64,000 nt of DNA, from positions 21,889,515 to 21,953,514 of the forward strand of contig OU744726.1 of NCBI GenBank assembly GCA_916613615.1, given 5' to 3'. Of the stretch, positions 15,188 through 36,946 are shown in pieces (the first letter of the stretch is position 1; every line of letters starts with the position of its first letter). A program made the position numbers and the translations under genes. The notes beneath the pieces were generated by a model. That model did no database searches and had not been told where the DNA came from. It worked only from the letters and a program-made list of their open reading frames with translations. Source of the stretch: Steromphala cineraria (taxonomy: Eukaryota > Mollusca > Gastropoda > Trochida > Trochidae).

Positions 15188-15254
15188 GATATGGCTGAGC
15201 GGAAGAAGAAGAAAAAGAAGCAGCTAACTCCCCTGGAGGTGGCAGTAGATGATA
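15188..15254 (+). CDS. SAMD9-like exon 1 (start codon exon)
   Basis: Acceptor TTTAAG, then GATATGGCTGAG with ATG at 15191, and donor GATA|GTGAGT. It encodes 21 residues, MAERKKKKKKQLTPLEVAVDD, with one base left over (phase 1). The phase matches the next exon. Confidence 0.65.
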
Positions 15255-18200
15255 GTGAGTTAATCATAACGACCATGATGGAACACTTGGTGTTGTTCTG
15301 CTTTCCCTTAATCTTCTTGAAAAATTGTCTGTTATTGCTCTTCAACCTGGCACTTTTTACTTACAATATGTTGCTACATGAAATGTCCTTGCTTGTGATT
15401 TCTGTATAGCCGTATAATATCAACTTTCAAATATCAATTGACATGAGACATAAAGCTTTAGCACAGTGACTAAAAGAAACATTCTATAAATGAAAGGGCA
15501 TTTTCAACAATTTGCCAAATTGGCTAATTTTTTATGATGCTTTCCACAAAAGCTTATTTTATCACATTTCAATTATAAATTCATCACATTGGAAAACACA
15601 TATCTTGATTAATCCTTGTGGCAATATATTCATAATGTAAATGTCAAGAAAATGAAAAACATTCTTGTGAACGTAGACCCTCAAACTGTCGTCGACTCCT
15701 CATCAGCAGGCAGAGTTTTCTATTTGTTCATACTTGTTTATATTTTTTTTATGTCTAAAAAACAATTTTTTAACTTGTTACTCTTCCAGCACGTATGGAG
15801 TTCCGAGGGGAGCATGTATACAATTACTTCACTTTGAACAACGCAAATGTGGTGCAGATCGGATCTGATAACTCTGTCGCCTTCAAGGAAGCACATCAGT
15901 TACTTGAGAACCCTCAGGGTGAGATTACATTCATCATTAACAAACATTGACGAAAAAGATCACTGGTCGTGTTTGTCGATTACAATTTGATTAATATCAA
16001 TCCCAACAAAAAGTTTTCATGTAAGGCCGCAACCCGACAACCAAACTCTTTCTTTTTCTCTATTTTCTCCCCACAGAATTCAGAATCATTTGATGTTATG
16101 GCTTGAGCTACTTCTAAGGGGAGATAATAGTGTGCTCCATATAGTCGTGTATCCTGCCAATCACAAGGTTTACATAAAGACGCCTTTTAAGGGGGGTAGG
16201 CGGCATGACCCAAACAAAAGCATTCAATATTTATTGATATCAAAATTGTTTATTTTCAGAATAGTGATGTTTTGGTAAAGATCCTTTTAAAAAAGTTGGA
16301 TAATGGATAATTCTAGGGTATACAGGAATTCTTGTACTTTATCACCCTAGAATGCGACTCAAACAGTATTTCTCAGAATCTATGCATAGTCGGTTGGTCG
16401 ATAGAACTTAATGCATTGGCCACAATTATCTTTACAATTGTTGTGTGATACTTGTCTTTTGATTAGGTTTAGTCCGTACTTAATTCATCACATTATGCAA
16501 CGAGAAAGTGTCATCCGACTTCGGAGAGTCATAGGCAGTGTTATCAACTCTGAAAATCTAACTCTTTCAAAATAACTTTAGCTTATCAATCATTTTTACA
16601 TAAATGTTACATAAATGTTACATTCAATGATTGAAGTTCGATGAAATAAGAGAAAACGTATCTCAAACGTCATATGTTCTGACATTTTTTATAGCTACTT
16701 ATGAAGTTTTTAAAGGATTTTAAGATATTCTCGAATAAAATATGGAGTAATTCTTTGATTGGAGATTTCTTATCATTCAATAGAAGTTCACTATTTTCTA
16801 AATGAAGTGTAAGTCATCTTAACAAGAAGTTGAATCAATAGATATGTATTTGGGTGCGATGAAAACAATAATAGCAAGCACAAATGATAATGCAATTTAA
16901 TTCAAATACCAAGTAATATTTGTCTTTCAGGAAAGTCATCCCATGGGCTTGGTAAGAAGGAAATATTCATCGGCCTCATCAACAGCGTCATCAACCCAAC
17001 ATGCACACTGAAGGCTGTGGAGATGCCCCTTAGGACCCTGGAGCGTCAGTTTGTAGATCACTTCAAAGGACGTTCACCGATTAGCTCTTTCAAAGATGCA
17101 TATGGTGTGCCAATTCGTCACTTCCTTGAGATGAGCCCGGAGTTGTACACGCTCTACAGTAAGAAGGGAAAGGAAACTGTAAGAATGAAGGCGAGGACTG
17201 GCAAGAAGGAAAAGACCAAAGTTCCTGATGATTCCTATTCATGTGATCCTCATCAGACAGTGCCTAAACATCTTGATGAGCAGGATCCGTCAACTGCTTC
17301 GTTACCTGAAGCGGATCAAATATGTGATCCTGTCTTGGAAGAGCAGAATGAACCTTCTATCGAAACACCCACAGAAACAATCACAGAAGCTTCGCAACCT
17401 GAGGAATGGCACACGTACACCAGGAAACGAAAAGAACGAAATCTGTAACTGTATCGGCCTCGACCTTGCAAGAATCGCCTACAGACAGTGTGCTACTTCC
17501 TGAATTTGATAATGACTCTCAATATGTCAAAGATTTGCTTCATAAGCAAGAAAGCGATGTTCTGATTTTTTATCCAGACGAGTCTGTGTATTCAAAAAAT
17601 CAGGTTCAGTTTATGATAGATGTTGTTTCCTTATGGAATACACCTTCCAGACACAAGGCTTCTATTGTTCTAGGGGTCCGTGTCAACTCTTCTGGAACTC
17701 ACCATATCTCTGGGATTCAAGTTCGATCTGCAAATGACTATTATCAGTGTCTTTTTCAAGAAGATAATTTTACCATGAAGCCTGTGTTTGAGTATAAAGA
17801 GTATGTCTATGAGGGAAAAGTTGTAGGAATCATAGAAGTTGCAAGTAGTTATGGGGGAGGGGCTCCAGCAATAGTGAAAAATGATATCAATCAAAATGTC
17901 AAGGCAGATCAATTGTGGGTAAGATCAGGTAAAGAAAACAGAATATGTCTCCAAAAAGACTTTCTCACAGTTCAGATATACCAATGGTTTGCTGGGCAAA
18001 CATCCCCTGTTTACAGTTCTGTTAAATCAGGAACACCAATAAAATTTGAACGGACTGAACATATGGAGGAAACTGTCAAGATTTCAACTGATGAAAGATC
18101 AAAAACTGAAGATTTCTGTTCAGTGGTTGGAAACTTTGATAAGGGTCATTTTGTTCTCATAACAGGAGGAATACCTGAGAACACAAAATATGTCCAGTCT

Positions 18201-36800: not shown

Positions 36801-36946
36801 ACCATCAATCTCATGCCTAGCCTTGAAGACAATGCCGAAGCCTCCCTGCCCAATTTCCTCCACCTCCTTGAAGCCAGGAATCCTACAGGAGGGCTTCACG
36901 AGGCTTGTTTGTCTCCCTGGCATTCCAACTGGAGACGTGGCACCTC
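24476..36946 (-). CDS. eIF2-alpha kinase (PKR/GCN2-like) with C-terminal LOTUS-like domain
   Basis: Exons in transcription order: 36946-36694, 36343-36237, 33415-33387, 33179-33135, 31691-31569, 30997-30905, 30261-30133, 29516-29379, 27753-27660 and 24813-24476. Every junction has GT..AG and a matching phase. The kinase has [12 protein letters not shown] (Gly loop), YALKRV (Lys), HRNVVRYYNSW (eIF2-alpha kinase signature), an acidic insert, [53 protein letters not shown] and DPQKRPTA. Family role: phosphorylates eIF2-alpha and shuts down translation initiation. The C-terminal exon encodes a domain like the one in the neighbouring SAMD9-like gene. The N-terminal regulatory part is not resolved; no RWD, dsRNA-binding or Z-alpha domain was recognised. 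An alternative is that the protein ends at TAG 27652-27654 without the last exon. Confidence 0.85.
25200..27093 (+). mobile_element. CR1/L2-type LINE, 5'-truncated, frameshifted
   Basis: Translation in successive frames gives reverse-transcriptase blocks: [48 protein letters not shown] (motif A), [13 protein letters not shown], then [10 protein letters not shown] (motif C, catalytic FADD), and a C-terminal [19 protein letters not shown] ending at TAA 26891-26893. Frame breaks lie near 25580, 26207, 26430 and 26655. The 3' end is ACAATAAAGACATTATC followed by (TTATC)n, the short-repeat tail of this LINE group. It lies antisense in the kinase intron and is inactive. Confidence 0.85.
27286..27548. 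mobile_element. MITE, family B copy 2
   Basis: AGTCTAAGTAAACCTAGCCT on the left and AGGCTTACTTAGACT on the right. It shares a GACCTATGATCCTCCAACGT core with the copy at the window's right end. 263 bases. Confidence 0.8.
27660..27753 (-). CDS. Kinase exon: end of C-lobe
   Basis: Acceptor TATATAG; reads [20 protein letters not shown] then [11 protein letters not shown]. The DPxxRPTA motif is kinase subdomain XI. A strong donor, CCAA|GTGAGT, precedes an in-frame TAG by five bases, so either splicing or termination is possible. Splicing leaves phase 1. Confidence 0.8.
27810..29079. mobile_element. TA-flanked DNA transposon, non-autonomous (1270 bp)
   Basis: The left end GTTTTCCGAAAGCAAGCCC is mirrored by GGGCTTGCTTTCGGAAAAC on the right, with TA at 27808-27809 and 29080-29081. 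AGAAGCCC(A/T)(T/G)GGGCTTCTAT-type palindromes sit inside both ends. No transposase frame is seen. TA duplication suggests a Tc1/mariner-like activity. It lies in a kinase intron. Confidence 0.65.
29379..29516 (-). CDS. Kinase exon: subdomain IX
   Basis: Acceptor TATTTTTCAG and donor GAA|GTAAGT, 46 codons, phase 0 at both ends. [19 protein letters not shown] and [12 protein letters not shown] closely follow the GCN2-type eIF2-alpha kinase pattern. Confidence 0.85.
29517..30132 (-). other. Kinase intron
   Basis: Nothing but AT-rich intron sequence is recognised. Confidence 0.5.
30133..30261 (-). CDS. Kinase exon: activation segment
   Basis: Acceptor TTTTGTAACAG and donor CAG|GTCAGG, 43 codons, phase 0. 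It begins with a basic run KRKRPRRRP and continues [18 protein letters not shown]. The residue before the R/A-x-Y motif is Ser, where GCN2 and PKR have the phosphorylated Thr of their G-T pair, and the usual APE/SPE is CPE. Confidence 0.85.
30262..30904 (-). other. Kinase intron
   Basis: Plain intron. No repeat or RNA gene recognised. Confidence 0.5.
30905..30997 (-). CDS. Kinase exon: catalytic loop and DFG
   Basis: Acceptor TTCTCAAG, 31 codons, phase 0. [14 protein letters not shown] supplies the catalytic Asp and [10 protein letters not shown] the metal-binding Asp. A second donor 12 bases further on (AAG|GTACAT at 30893) would add VRWK in frame. Confidence 0.85.
31412..31498. repeat. ~32-bp tandem repeat, three copies
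   Basis: GGGGACTGTA-(A/T)T-TGTACCCGT recurs three times inside a kinase intron. Confidence 0.8.
31569..31691 (-). CDS. Kinase exon: hinge and helix E
   Basis: Acceptor ATAATTTCAG and donor CAG|GTAGAC, 41 codons, phase 0. [15 protein letters not shown], then [11 protein letters not shown], the region just before the HRD exon. Confidence 0.8.
31755..32988. mobile_element. TA-flanked DNA transposon, non-autonomous (1234 bp)
   Basis: Left end GGGAGACCAGGGCAAAGCGC; right end GCGCTTTGCCCTGGTCTCCC; TA at 31753-31754 and 32989-32990. GGGGCAAAGTG motifs occur in both orientations inside (near 31783, 32117, 32143, 32771 and 32800). There is no transposase. It sits in the kinase intron between the hinge exon and the 15-codon exon. 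Confidence 0.8.
33135..33179 (-). CDS. Kinase micro-exon (15 codons)
   Basis: Acceptor TATTTTTCAG and donor [24 protein letters not shown] leads directly into MEYC of the next exon. Confidence 0.75.
33387..33415 (-). CDS. Kinase micro-exon (29 bases)
   Basis: Acceptor TATATCAAG and donor AAAG|GTATGT. With the single base carried from the previous exon it encodes [10 protein letters not shown]. Length and phases fit exactly, but so short an exon needs transcript proof. Confidence 0.55.
33990..34950. repeat. ~140-150-bp tandem array with inverted AGGTCA motifs
   Basis: CTGGTGTCTGCATATCCACC-like phrases occur near 34010, 34150, 34290, 34437, 34587, 34740 and 34889, each linked to GTGACCTTGA-(A)-AATTAGGTCAAGGTCAC. 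About seven diverged units lie in a kinase intron. Confidence 0.85.
34951..36236 (-). other. Kinase intron, right part
   Basis: AT-rich with no recognised element. Confidence 0.45.
36237..36343 (-). CDS. Kinase exon: signature and acidic insert
   Basis: Acceptor TTTGCAAACAG and donor AATG|GTAATC. It completes [12 protein letters not shown] and then carries the acidic insert [13 protein letters not shown] plus a Glu run. A kinase insert at this place is characteristic of eIF2-alpha kinases. Confidence 0.85.
36344..36693 (-). other. Kinase intron between N-lobe and signature exons
   Basis: GTAAGG donor and TTTGCAAACAG acceptor on the minus strand. The insertion point lies inside the conserved VVR|YY codon. 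Confidence 0.7.
36694..36946 (-). CDS. Kinase exon: N-lobe
   Basis: Acceptor GACAACAG and donor [39 protein letters not shown] and [15 protein letters not shown] make up the Gly loop, the ATP-binding Lys and helix C. Entry is phase 1. An internal ATG at 36921-36923 could be a start only if the upstream part is untranslated. Confidence 0.85.

Follow-up and report, generated by a model that had tools for sequence, protein, structure and literature searches.

Two of the described systems closest to the locus reported here are the SAMD9/SAMD9L family and the ZBP1/PKZ pair. In the former, AlbA_2, Sir2-like, and GGT-type P-loop NTPase parts follow a variable N-terminal adaptor (Mekhedov, Makarova, and Koonin 2017, PMC5445408), and in the latter a single winged helix occurs both in ZBP1, a RHIM protein, and in PKZ, an eIF2-alpha kinase (PMC10523160). 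Here we describe a 64,000-nucleotide stretch of the genome of the gastropod Steromphala cineraria (assembly GCA_916613615.1, contig OU744726.1, positions 21,889,515 to 21,953,514 of the forward strand; hereafter the window, to which all coordinates refer), in which a SAMD9-like gene with a RHIM lies beside an apparent GCN2-type eIF2-alpha kinase gene and a homologous LOTUS-like winged helix is assigned to both. Full GCN2 has RWD, pseudokinase, and HisRS-like parts; the window kinase resembles GCN2 (EIF2AK4) in its best Protein Data Bank (PDB) matches to the kinase domain and in an acidic insert, but differs from it in its LOTUS-like C-terminus, its long branch, and the lack of RWD, pseudokinase, and HisRS-like parts in the open reading frames (ORFs) scanned. 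The helices of LOTUS/OST-HTH proteins (TDRD5, TDRD7, Oskar, and MARF1) and of Egalitarian are similar to the window domains in predicted fold, although the latter have neither an OST-HTH Pfam match nor a LOTUS chain in a PDB sequence search. Fungal amyloid-motif NLRs also combine, in the descriptions consulted, a STAND-type NTPase and, N-terminal to it, a short motif for amyloid signalling, but they belong to another kingdom and use another NTPase, whereas in the window gene a SAMD9 core would carry an animal RHIM. ZBP1, to our knowledge, has no NTPase. The SAMD9-like protein of the window departs from the described SAMD9/SAMD9L proteins (PMC5445408) by its RHIM adaptor followed by a LOTUS-like winged helix, and the pair departs from ZBP1 and PKZ, whose helix is Z-alpha rather than LOTUS-like and is N-terminal in PKZ, alongside a PKR-like kinase (PMC10523160, PMC7137213). 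ZBP1/PKZ would nevertheless be the nearest parallel, by analogy and not kinship, provided that the last exon is joined to the kinase as we infer.

Results

The two domains are homologous. A profile that excluded the window and drew on the LOTUS-like domains of 18 other SAMD9-like proteins was run against the 1,576 window ORFs of at least 25 amino acids and matched only the exon of the SAMD9-like gene (E 2.4e-25) and the post-kinase exon (E 2.8e-10), the next ORF having E 2.2; because a window-free profile finds exactly these two ORFs, the shared domain reflects real homology. BLASTP between the two domains gave 32.6% identity over 86 residues (40.4 bits), and their Smith-Waterman score was 91, with no score above 43 among 2,000 shuffles. 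A first-pass annotation, made from the letters of the window, had proposed a shared LOTUS-like domain with a series of matching landmarks, and all of these are present in both domains: GLGKK/GLSKK, LIN, MPLRTLE/MPLTDLE, FKG/FRG, LYTL/LYSL, and VRMK/VRLK. The phase-1 intron said to enter before GLxKK is likewise seen, with phase-1 acceptors just ahead of both domains. The two genes are tail-to-tail, as that annotation had stated with a distance of about 2.7 kb: the SAMD9-like stop at 21731 (plus strand) and the kinase-gene stop at 24476 (minus strand) have 2,744 bases between them.

AlphaFold2 modeled the SAMD9-like domain with a mean predicted local distance difference test (pLDDT) of 85.8 and the kinase-gene domain with a mean of 77.1 and a core of about 90. 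Both models are winged helices and not unrelated folds; LOTUS chains lead or tie in the structure comparison, with other winged helices within 1 Z. Foldseek returned no match for the domain at E up to 0.001, Pfam OST-HTH did not match any of 12 members at E up to 10, and no LOTUS chain appeared in the PDB sequence search, whereas Pfam WH_Egal matched 2 of the 12 members (best E 0.0023). The domain core ends in VR[ML]K, which we take to resemble LOTUS sequence. The models thus suggest winged helices nearest to LOTUS/Egalitarian domains, not clear of other winged helices, and the shared LOTUS-like domain of the first-pass annotation is supported.

The N-terminal part of the SAMD9-like gene carries a second signature. 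Its exon 2 encodes NNANVVQIGSDNSV, in which the RHIM tetrad, defined as (V/I)-Q-(V/I/L/C)-G (PMC10523160), occurs as VQIG at 15852, the only one of four matches in a RHIM motif scan that lies in open coding context. Pfam RHIM scored exon 2 at E 0.0096 and 15.9 bits, under the cut-off of 20, and residues 19-63 of Haliotis protein P0121 matched 15792-15929 by tblastn with 50% identity (E 3e-7). In the 109 SAMD9-like relatives described below, the strict tetrad [VI]Q[VIL]G occurs within the first 90 residues of 15 proteins and 4 times in the 153,436 residues elsewhere (0.0023 expected per 90). Many of the 109 seem, from their short N-termini, to lack the small RHIM exon; of the 33 in which 35 or more residues precede the LOTUS-like domain, 14 contain the strict tetrad and 16 a looser core, with no core match in 17. 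The motif typically reads as in NQCQGIQVGPNN from Sinanodonta, NDCSGVQIGNHN from Haliotis, NNCTGIQIGDHN from Solemya, and KNCHTVQIGQTN from Mercenaria. Pfam RHIM was found at E up to 1 in 8 of the 16 members of one alignment (A1; best E 0.0017), one of the 16 being the window's LOTUS piece, which contains no RHIM. These sequences point to a RHIM in exon 2 that is conserved among molluscs.

Other relatives have a CARD (P0159, E 2.7e-14) or a Death domain (P0191, E 2.6e-6; weak and below cut-off in P0190) where the RHIM would be, followed by the LOTUS-like domain. Because CARD and Death are found in the same place, the RHIM occupies the homotypic-adaptor slot of SAMD9 proteins. P0161 also has a CARD, by listing annotation, ahead of its LOTUS-like domain, and P0125 is annotated with a CARD and has no LOTUS-like match. 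The adaptors listed in the family survey are SAM, CARD, Death, Pyrin, and FIIND, and neither RHIM nor LOTUS is a word of its main text (PMC5445408). Literature naming both RHIM and SAMD9 held, by titles and abstract openings, nothing tying the two, and among the matches listed no paper brought 'LOTUS domain' together with RHIM or an eIF2alpha kinase. RHIM proteins are known from bivalves, and a cockle iridovirus encodes a CARD-RHIM protein like bivalve sequences (PMC12452177).

Both memberships given in the first-pass annotation, a SAMD9-like gene beside an eIF2-alpha kinase gene, were borne out, the former by a family profile and the latter by PDB matches. The gene at 15191-21731 belongs, by its sequence, to the SAMD9 family and would encode a STAND-like protein. 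Residues 254-1651 of P0121 match 17505-21683 by tblastn with 57.6% identity, and a profile of the relatives aligns with PDB chains of human SAMD9 over a stretch that runs from the Sir2-like part and reaches into the NTPase (E 1.7e-29). The GGT/S that replaces GKT/S in the P-loop of the SAMD9 family is present as HAPGAGGTT in the ORF at 18378-21731, and the AlbA_2-like part matches Pfam SLFN_AlbA_2 with E 0.0017 and 19.3 bits, under the cut-off of 25.3. The predicted order is RHIM, LOTUS-like winged helix, AlbA_2-like, Sir2-like, GGT-type P-loop NTPase, and C-terminal part, in which tetratricopeptide repeat (TPR) and OB regions are assigned by analogy with the family and not one by one.

The kinase gene was modeled by eye, including its exons 3 and 4, as ten exons running from 36946 to 24476 on the minus strand, with GT-AG introns, all exons in frame, and consistent phases; a possible start ATG lies at about 36923, inside the first kinase exon seen. 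The modeled protein retains the catalytic lysine, the alpha-C glutamate, and the HRD and DFG motifs, and the PDB matches are led by GCN2 (2.7e-65), then PERK, PKR, and HRI. A quick tree of 31 domains (that of the window and 30 chosen from 120 listed, PERK being absent) groups the kinase on the side of GCN2 and apart from those of PKR and HRI, with a Shimodaira-Hasegawa-like approximate likelihood ratio test (SH-aLRT) value of 95 and a branch of 2.5 changes per column. The kinase domain is therefore that of a GCN2-type eIF2-alpha kinase. Nine minus-strand upstream ORFs, a part of those upstream, were scanned and contain no RWD or other clear domain, and the C-terminus as modeled is LOTUS-like, not HisRS-like. 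Within the introns of the kinase gene lie a reverse transcriptase domain (25560-26243, plus strand; RVT_1 E 1.8e-24), antisense inside the last intron and next to frames that look by eye like broken pieces of one element, and a tandem array at 34244-34956 with a 151-base unit in 4.7 copies. The features of both genes are listed in Table 1.

Table 1. Coordinates of the SAMD9-like gene and the modeled kinase gene in the window
Feature	Positions	Strand	Evidence or remark
SAMD9-like exon 1	15191..15254	+	Read directly; start MAERKKKKKKQ...; phase-1 donor; start of Haliotis P0121 similar in style
SAMD9-like exon 2	15790..15918	+	RHIM core NVVQIGSDNSV, tetrad from 15852
SAMD9-like exon 3 to frame change	16931..17444	+	LOTUS-like domain 16945-17190
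AlbA_2-like and Sir2-like part, other frame	17403..18374	+	Pfam SLFN_AlbA_2; tblastn with P0121
In-frame TGA	18375..18377	+	Gly at this place in 106/109 relatives
NTPase (P-loop HAPGAGGTT) and C-terminal part	18378..21731	+	ORF; profile against human SAMD9
Kinase exon 1 (first seen)	36694..36946	-	Pfam Pkinase 5.3e-11; glycine-rich loop, lysine, alpha-C glutamate
Kinase exon 2	36237..36343	-	YYNSWIE and acidic insert
Kinase exon 3	33387..33415	-	Insert; by eye
Kinase exon 4	33135..33179	-	By eye
Kinase exon 5	31569..31691	-	tblastn with GCN2-like proteins
Kinase exon 6	30905..30997	-	Pfam Pkinase 2.6e-11 for ORF
Kinase exon 7	30133..30261	-	Activation loop, CPE
Kinase exon 8	29379..29516	-	tblastn E 2e-11
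Kinase exon 9	27660..27753	-	Ends in phase 1; unspliced, runs to NPSE-stop within a few codons
Last exon assigned to kinase gene	24476..24813	-	LOTUS-like domain 24805-24551, then stop

A search with the SAMD9-like protein returned 109 proteins, the best of them, from Haliotis rufescens, being 54% identical across 99% of the query; the named sources recognized among them are, as far as we can place them, all molluscs. The two best listed abalone SAMD9-like proteins, each of 1,653 residues, retain the RHIM and align over 99% of the query. The LOTUS-like profile matches 71 of the 109, of which 18 had been its seeds together with the two window domains, leaving 53 of 91 as independent. Among the 120 other kinases in the matches listed, none has the LOTUS-like domain (best E 0.21), with 1,045 further proteins outside that list, and the 164 residues of kinase tail and LOTUS-like domain in a lengthened query gave no match at E up to 1 among 859 candidates, in a protein search that misses relatives with no common five-residue words. 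Within the reach of these searches, the domain is thus frequent among the SAMD9-like proteins of molluscs and was met in no further kinase.

Discussion

From the observed domain homology, conserved RHIM, kinase type, and gene order, we propose that two adjacent molluscan genes of innate-immune type share one LOTUS/Egalitarian-type winged helix as a sensor module used twice, a proposal to which we give even credence. LOTUS domains can bind single-stranded RNA, and LOTUS-like Egalitarian domains contact double-stranded RNA stem-loops (PMC13186709). By extension, the winged helix may bind a marker of infection or stress, either an RNA or a protein scaffold. A ligand on the helix of the kinase would bring about dimerization and activation, leading to phosphorylation of eIF2-alpha and a stop of initiation, and the same helix on the SAMD9-like protein, were this copy active, would feed an NTPase-driven assembly, whose RHIM could nucleate amyloid and recruit other RHIM proteins toward cell death or NF-kB-type signalling, the direction in which the RHIM may point the SAMD9-like branch. 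A common ligand and a cooperation of the two proteins would follow from such a scheme. A stronger form, in which the locus is a molluscan ZBP1/PKZ counterpart that arose independently on a LOTUS/Egalitarian-type helix and in which one RNA signal triggers both death and translation arrest, seems to us doubtful.

The sensor-module proposal depends on the last exon, 24476-24813, whose splicing onto the kinase we infer. The phase-1 end of exon 9 fits the LOTUS-like exon, whose acceptor is also of phase 1, and the codon score of this exon (0.059) is the best of the six frames and compares with a 99th percentile of 0.025 and a maximum of 0.077 in 2,000 non-coding windows, on a rough measure that gives the first kinase exon 0.234 in a wrong frame and 0.187 in its own. 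It counts against the proposal that the kinase could end at the NPSE-stop at about 27651, just past exon 9, followed by an AATAAA at 27628; the latter may be there by chance, since six copies occur in that 2,847-base intron. The last exon would then lie outside the kinase gene, either as a relic of an inverted second SAMD9-like copy or as part of some short gene not seen here, which we consider unlikely, even if it fits the abundance of the domain in SAMD9-like proteins, its absence from the other kinases searched, and the repeated appearance of several species among the SAMD9-like matches. Against a relic, tblastn of 8 relatives found SAMD9 similarity only at the known gene (E up to 1e-3), but it misses exon 24476-24813 too, and an equally decayed relic could escape it. 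The single RHIM in open coding context and the fitting of acceptor and donor phases (a one-in-three chance) also speak against it, and the last exon keeps 111 open codons and a recognizable domain despite a very long branch, which argues for selection on its protein. Alternatively, the genes may be chance neighbors, the kinase having taken its exon by shuffling from some SAMD9-like gene, with no common ligand or pathway; this is possible, if on the doubtful side. The kinase-LOTUS fusion is seen only here within the searches made, and the last intron contains reverse-transcriptase DNA (RVT_1 E 1.8e-24), a common setting for exon shuffling. On the other hand, the closest domain to that of the kinase is the window's own SAMD9-like domain (30-32% identity against 18-27% for the 18 others). 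In the tree, where the window's SAMD9-like domain is also the nearest by path, the two window domains are sisters with support of 53/77, and the alternative is not rejected by the approximately unbiased test (p-AU 0.42). Around the two exons no DNA similarity beyond chance was found, and the tree and the DNA comparison appear to favor neither local duplication nor exon shuffling.

The SAMD9-like copy has uncertainties of its own. It has no intact full-length frame, with a frame change at about 17403-17445, in the linker, and the TGA at 18375-18377, and because this TGA stands where 106 of the 109 relatives have Gly (2 having a gap and 1 an aspartate), the copy may be broken. That it is dead or dying, so that only the kinase matters, is a possibility that we hold to be real but rather unlikely: 1,117 open codons follow the stop, the 57.6% identity to abalone P0121 extends over 1,398 residues and spans it, short introns could account for the frame change (20 open GT-AG choices), and a base or assembly error would look alike. 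No intron that removes the TGA while sparing conserved residues is apparent in the sequence. The family relationship of the gene is unaffected by the broken frame. The stop and the codon after it, at 18375-18380, read TGA CTA; UGA-CUA is a context that favors stop-codon readthrough, which, if real, would determine if the RHIM-LOTUS part is produced with the NTPase attached or without it. As for what the protein does, the first-pass annotation saw two translation shut-off effectors, which would here mean that the SAMD9-like protein cleaves tRNA like human SAMD9 and that the pair forms a double translation block. The kinase half holds in that its catalytic domain is of eIF2-alpha kinase type, but the SAMD9-like half is not supported, in view of the RHIM, the TGA, and the motif scans described here, and we regard the double block as improbable. 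In human SAMD9, tRNA-Phe is cleaved by way of the AlbA-type domain, with E184, E196, E218, D241, K198, K214, and R221 named as important (PMC12331169). AlbA_2 similarity is indeed found in 6 of 16 members (best E 2.1e-5). We scored the 67 sequences with a recognizable WNT landmark, of 110 including the window, for active-site motifs: a loose E..[ED].[KR] pattern occurs in 26, the E-S..EFK-type motif in none, the E-11-E-x-K spacing of human E184/E196/K198 in 1, and a nearby E-hydrophobic-K in 3, these being motif scans, not activity tests. The AlbA-like part of the profile of relatives did not align to human SAMD9, and no SAMD9 chain was matched by the AlbA piece alone. On these scans, and with no alignment to the human residues, the tRNA-cleavage half was not adopted, though the AlbA_2 similarity and the loose pattern in 26 of the 67 speak for it and it may still hold.

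If the sensor-module proposal is true, RHIM-type amyloid signalling and the SAMD9 family would be joined in one molecule, and the front adaptors of SAMD9 proteins (SAM, CARD, Death, and Pyrin) would extend to RHIM. From an evolutionary point of view, it would also suggest a rule by which a single winged helix that reads nucleic acids may have been added more than once in animals to both a death inducer and an eIF2 kinase. The joining of RHIM to SAMD9 and this rule can both be tested in abalone.

Other features of the window

A long single-exon ORF at 51425-52534 (plus strand) is galactosyltransferase-like (Pfam Galactosyl_T 5.5e-42), and long low-complexity TCA/CAC repeats at 42304-43257 give rise to spurious long ORFs on both strands.

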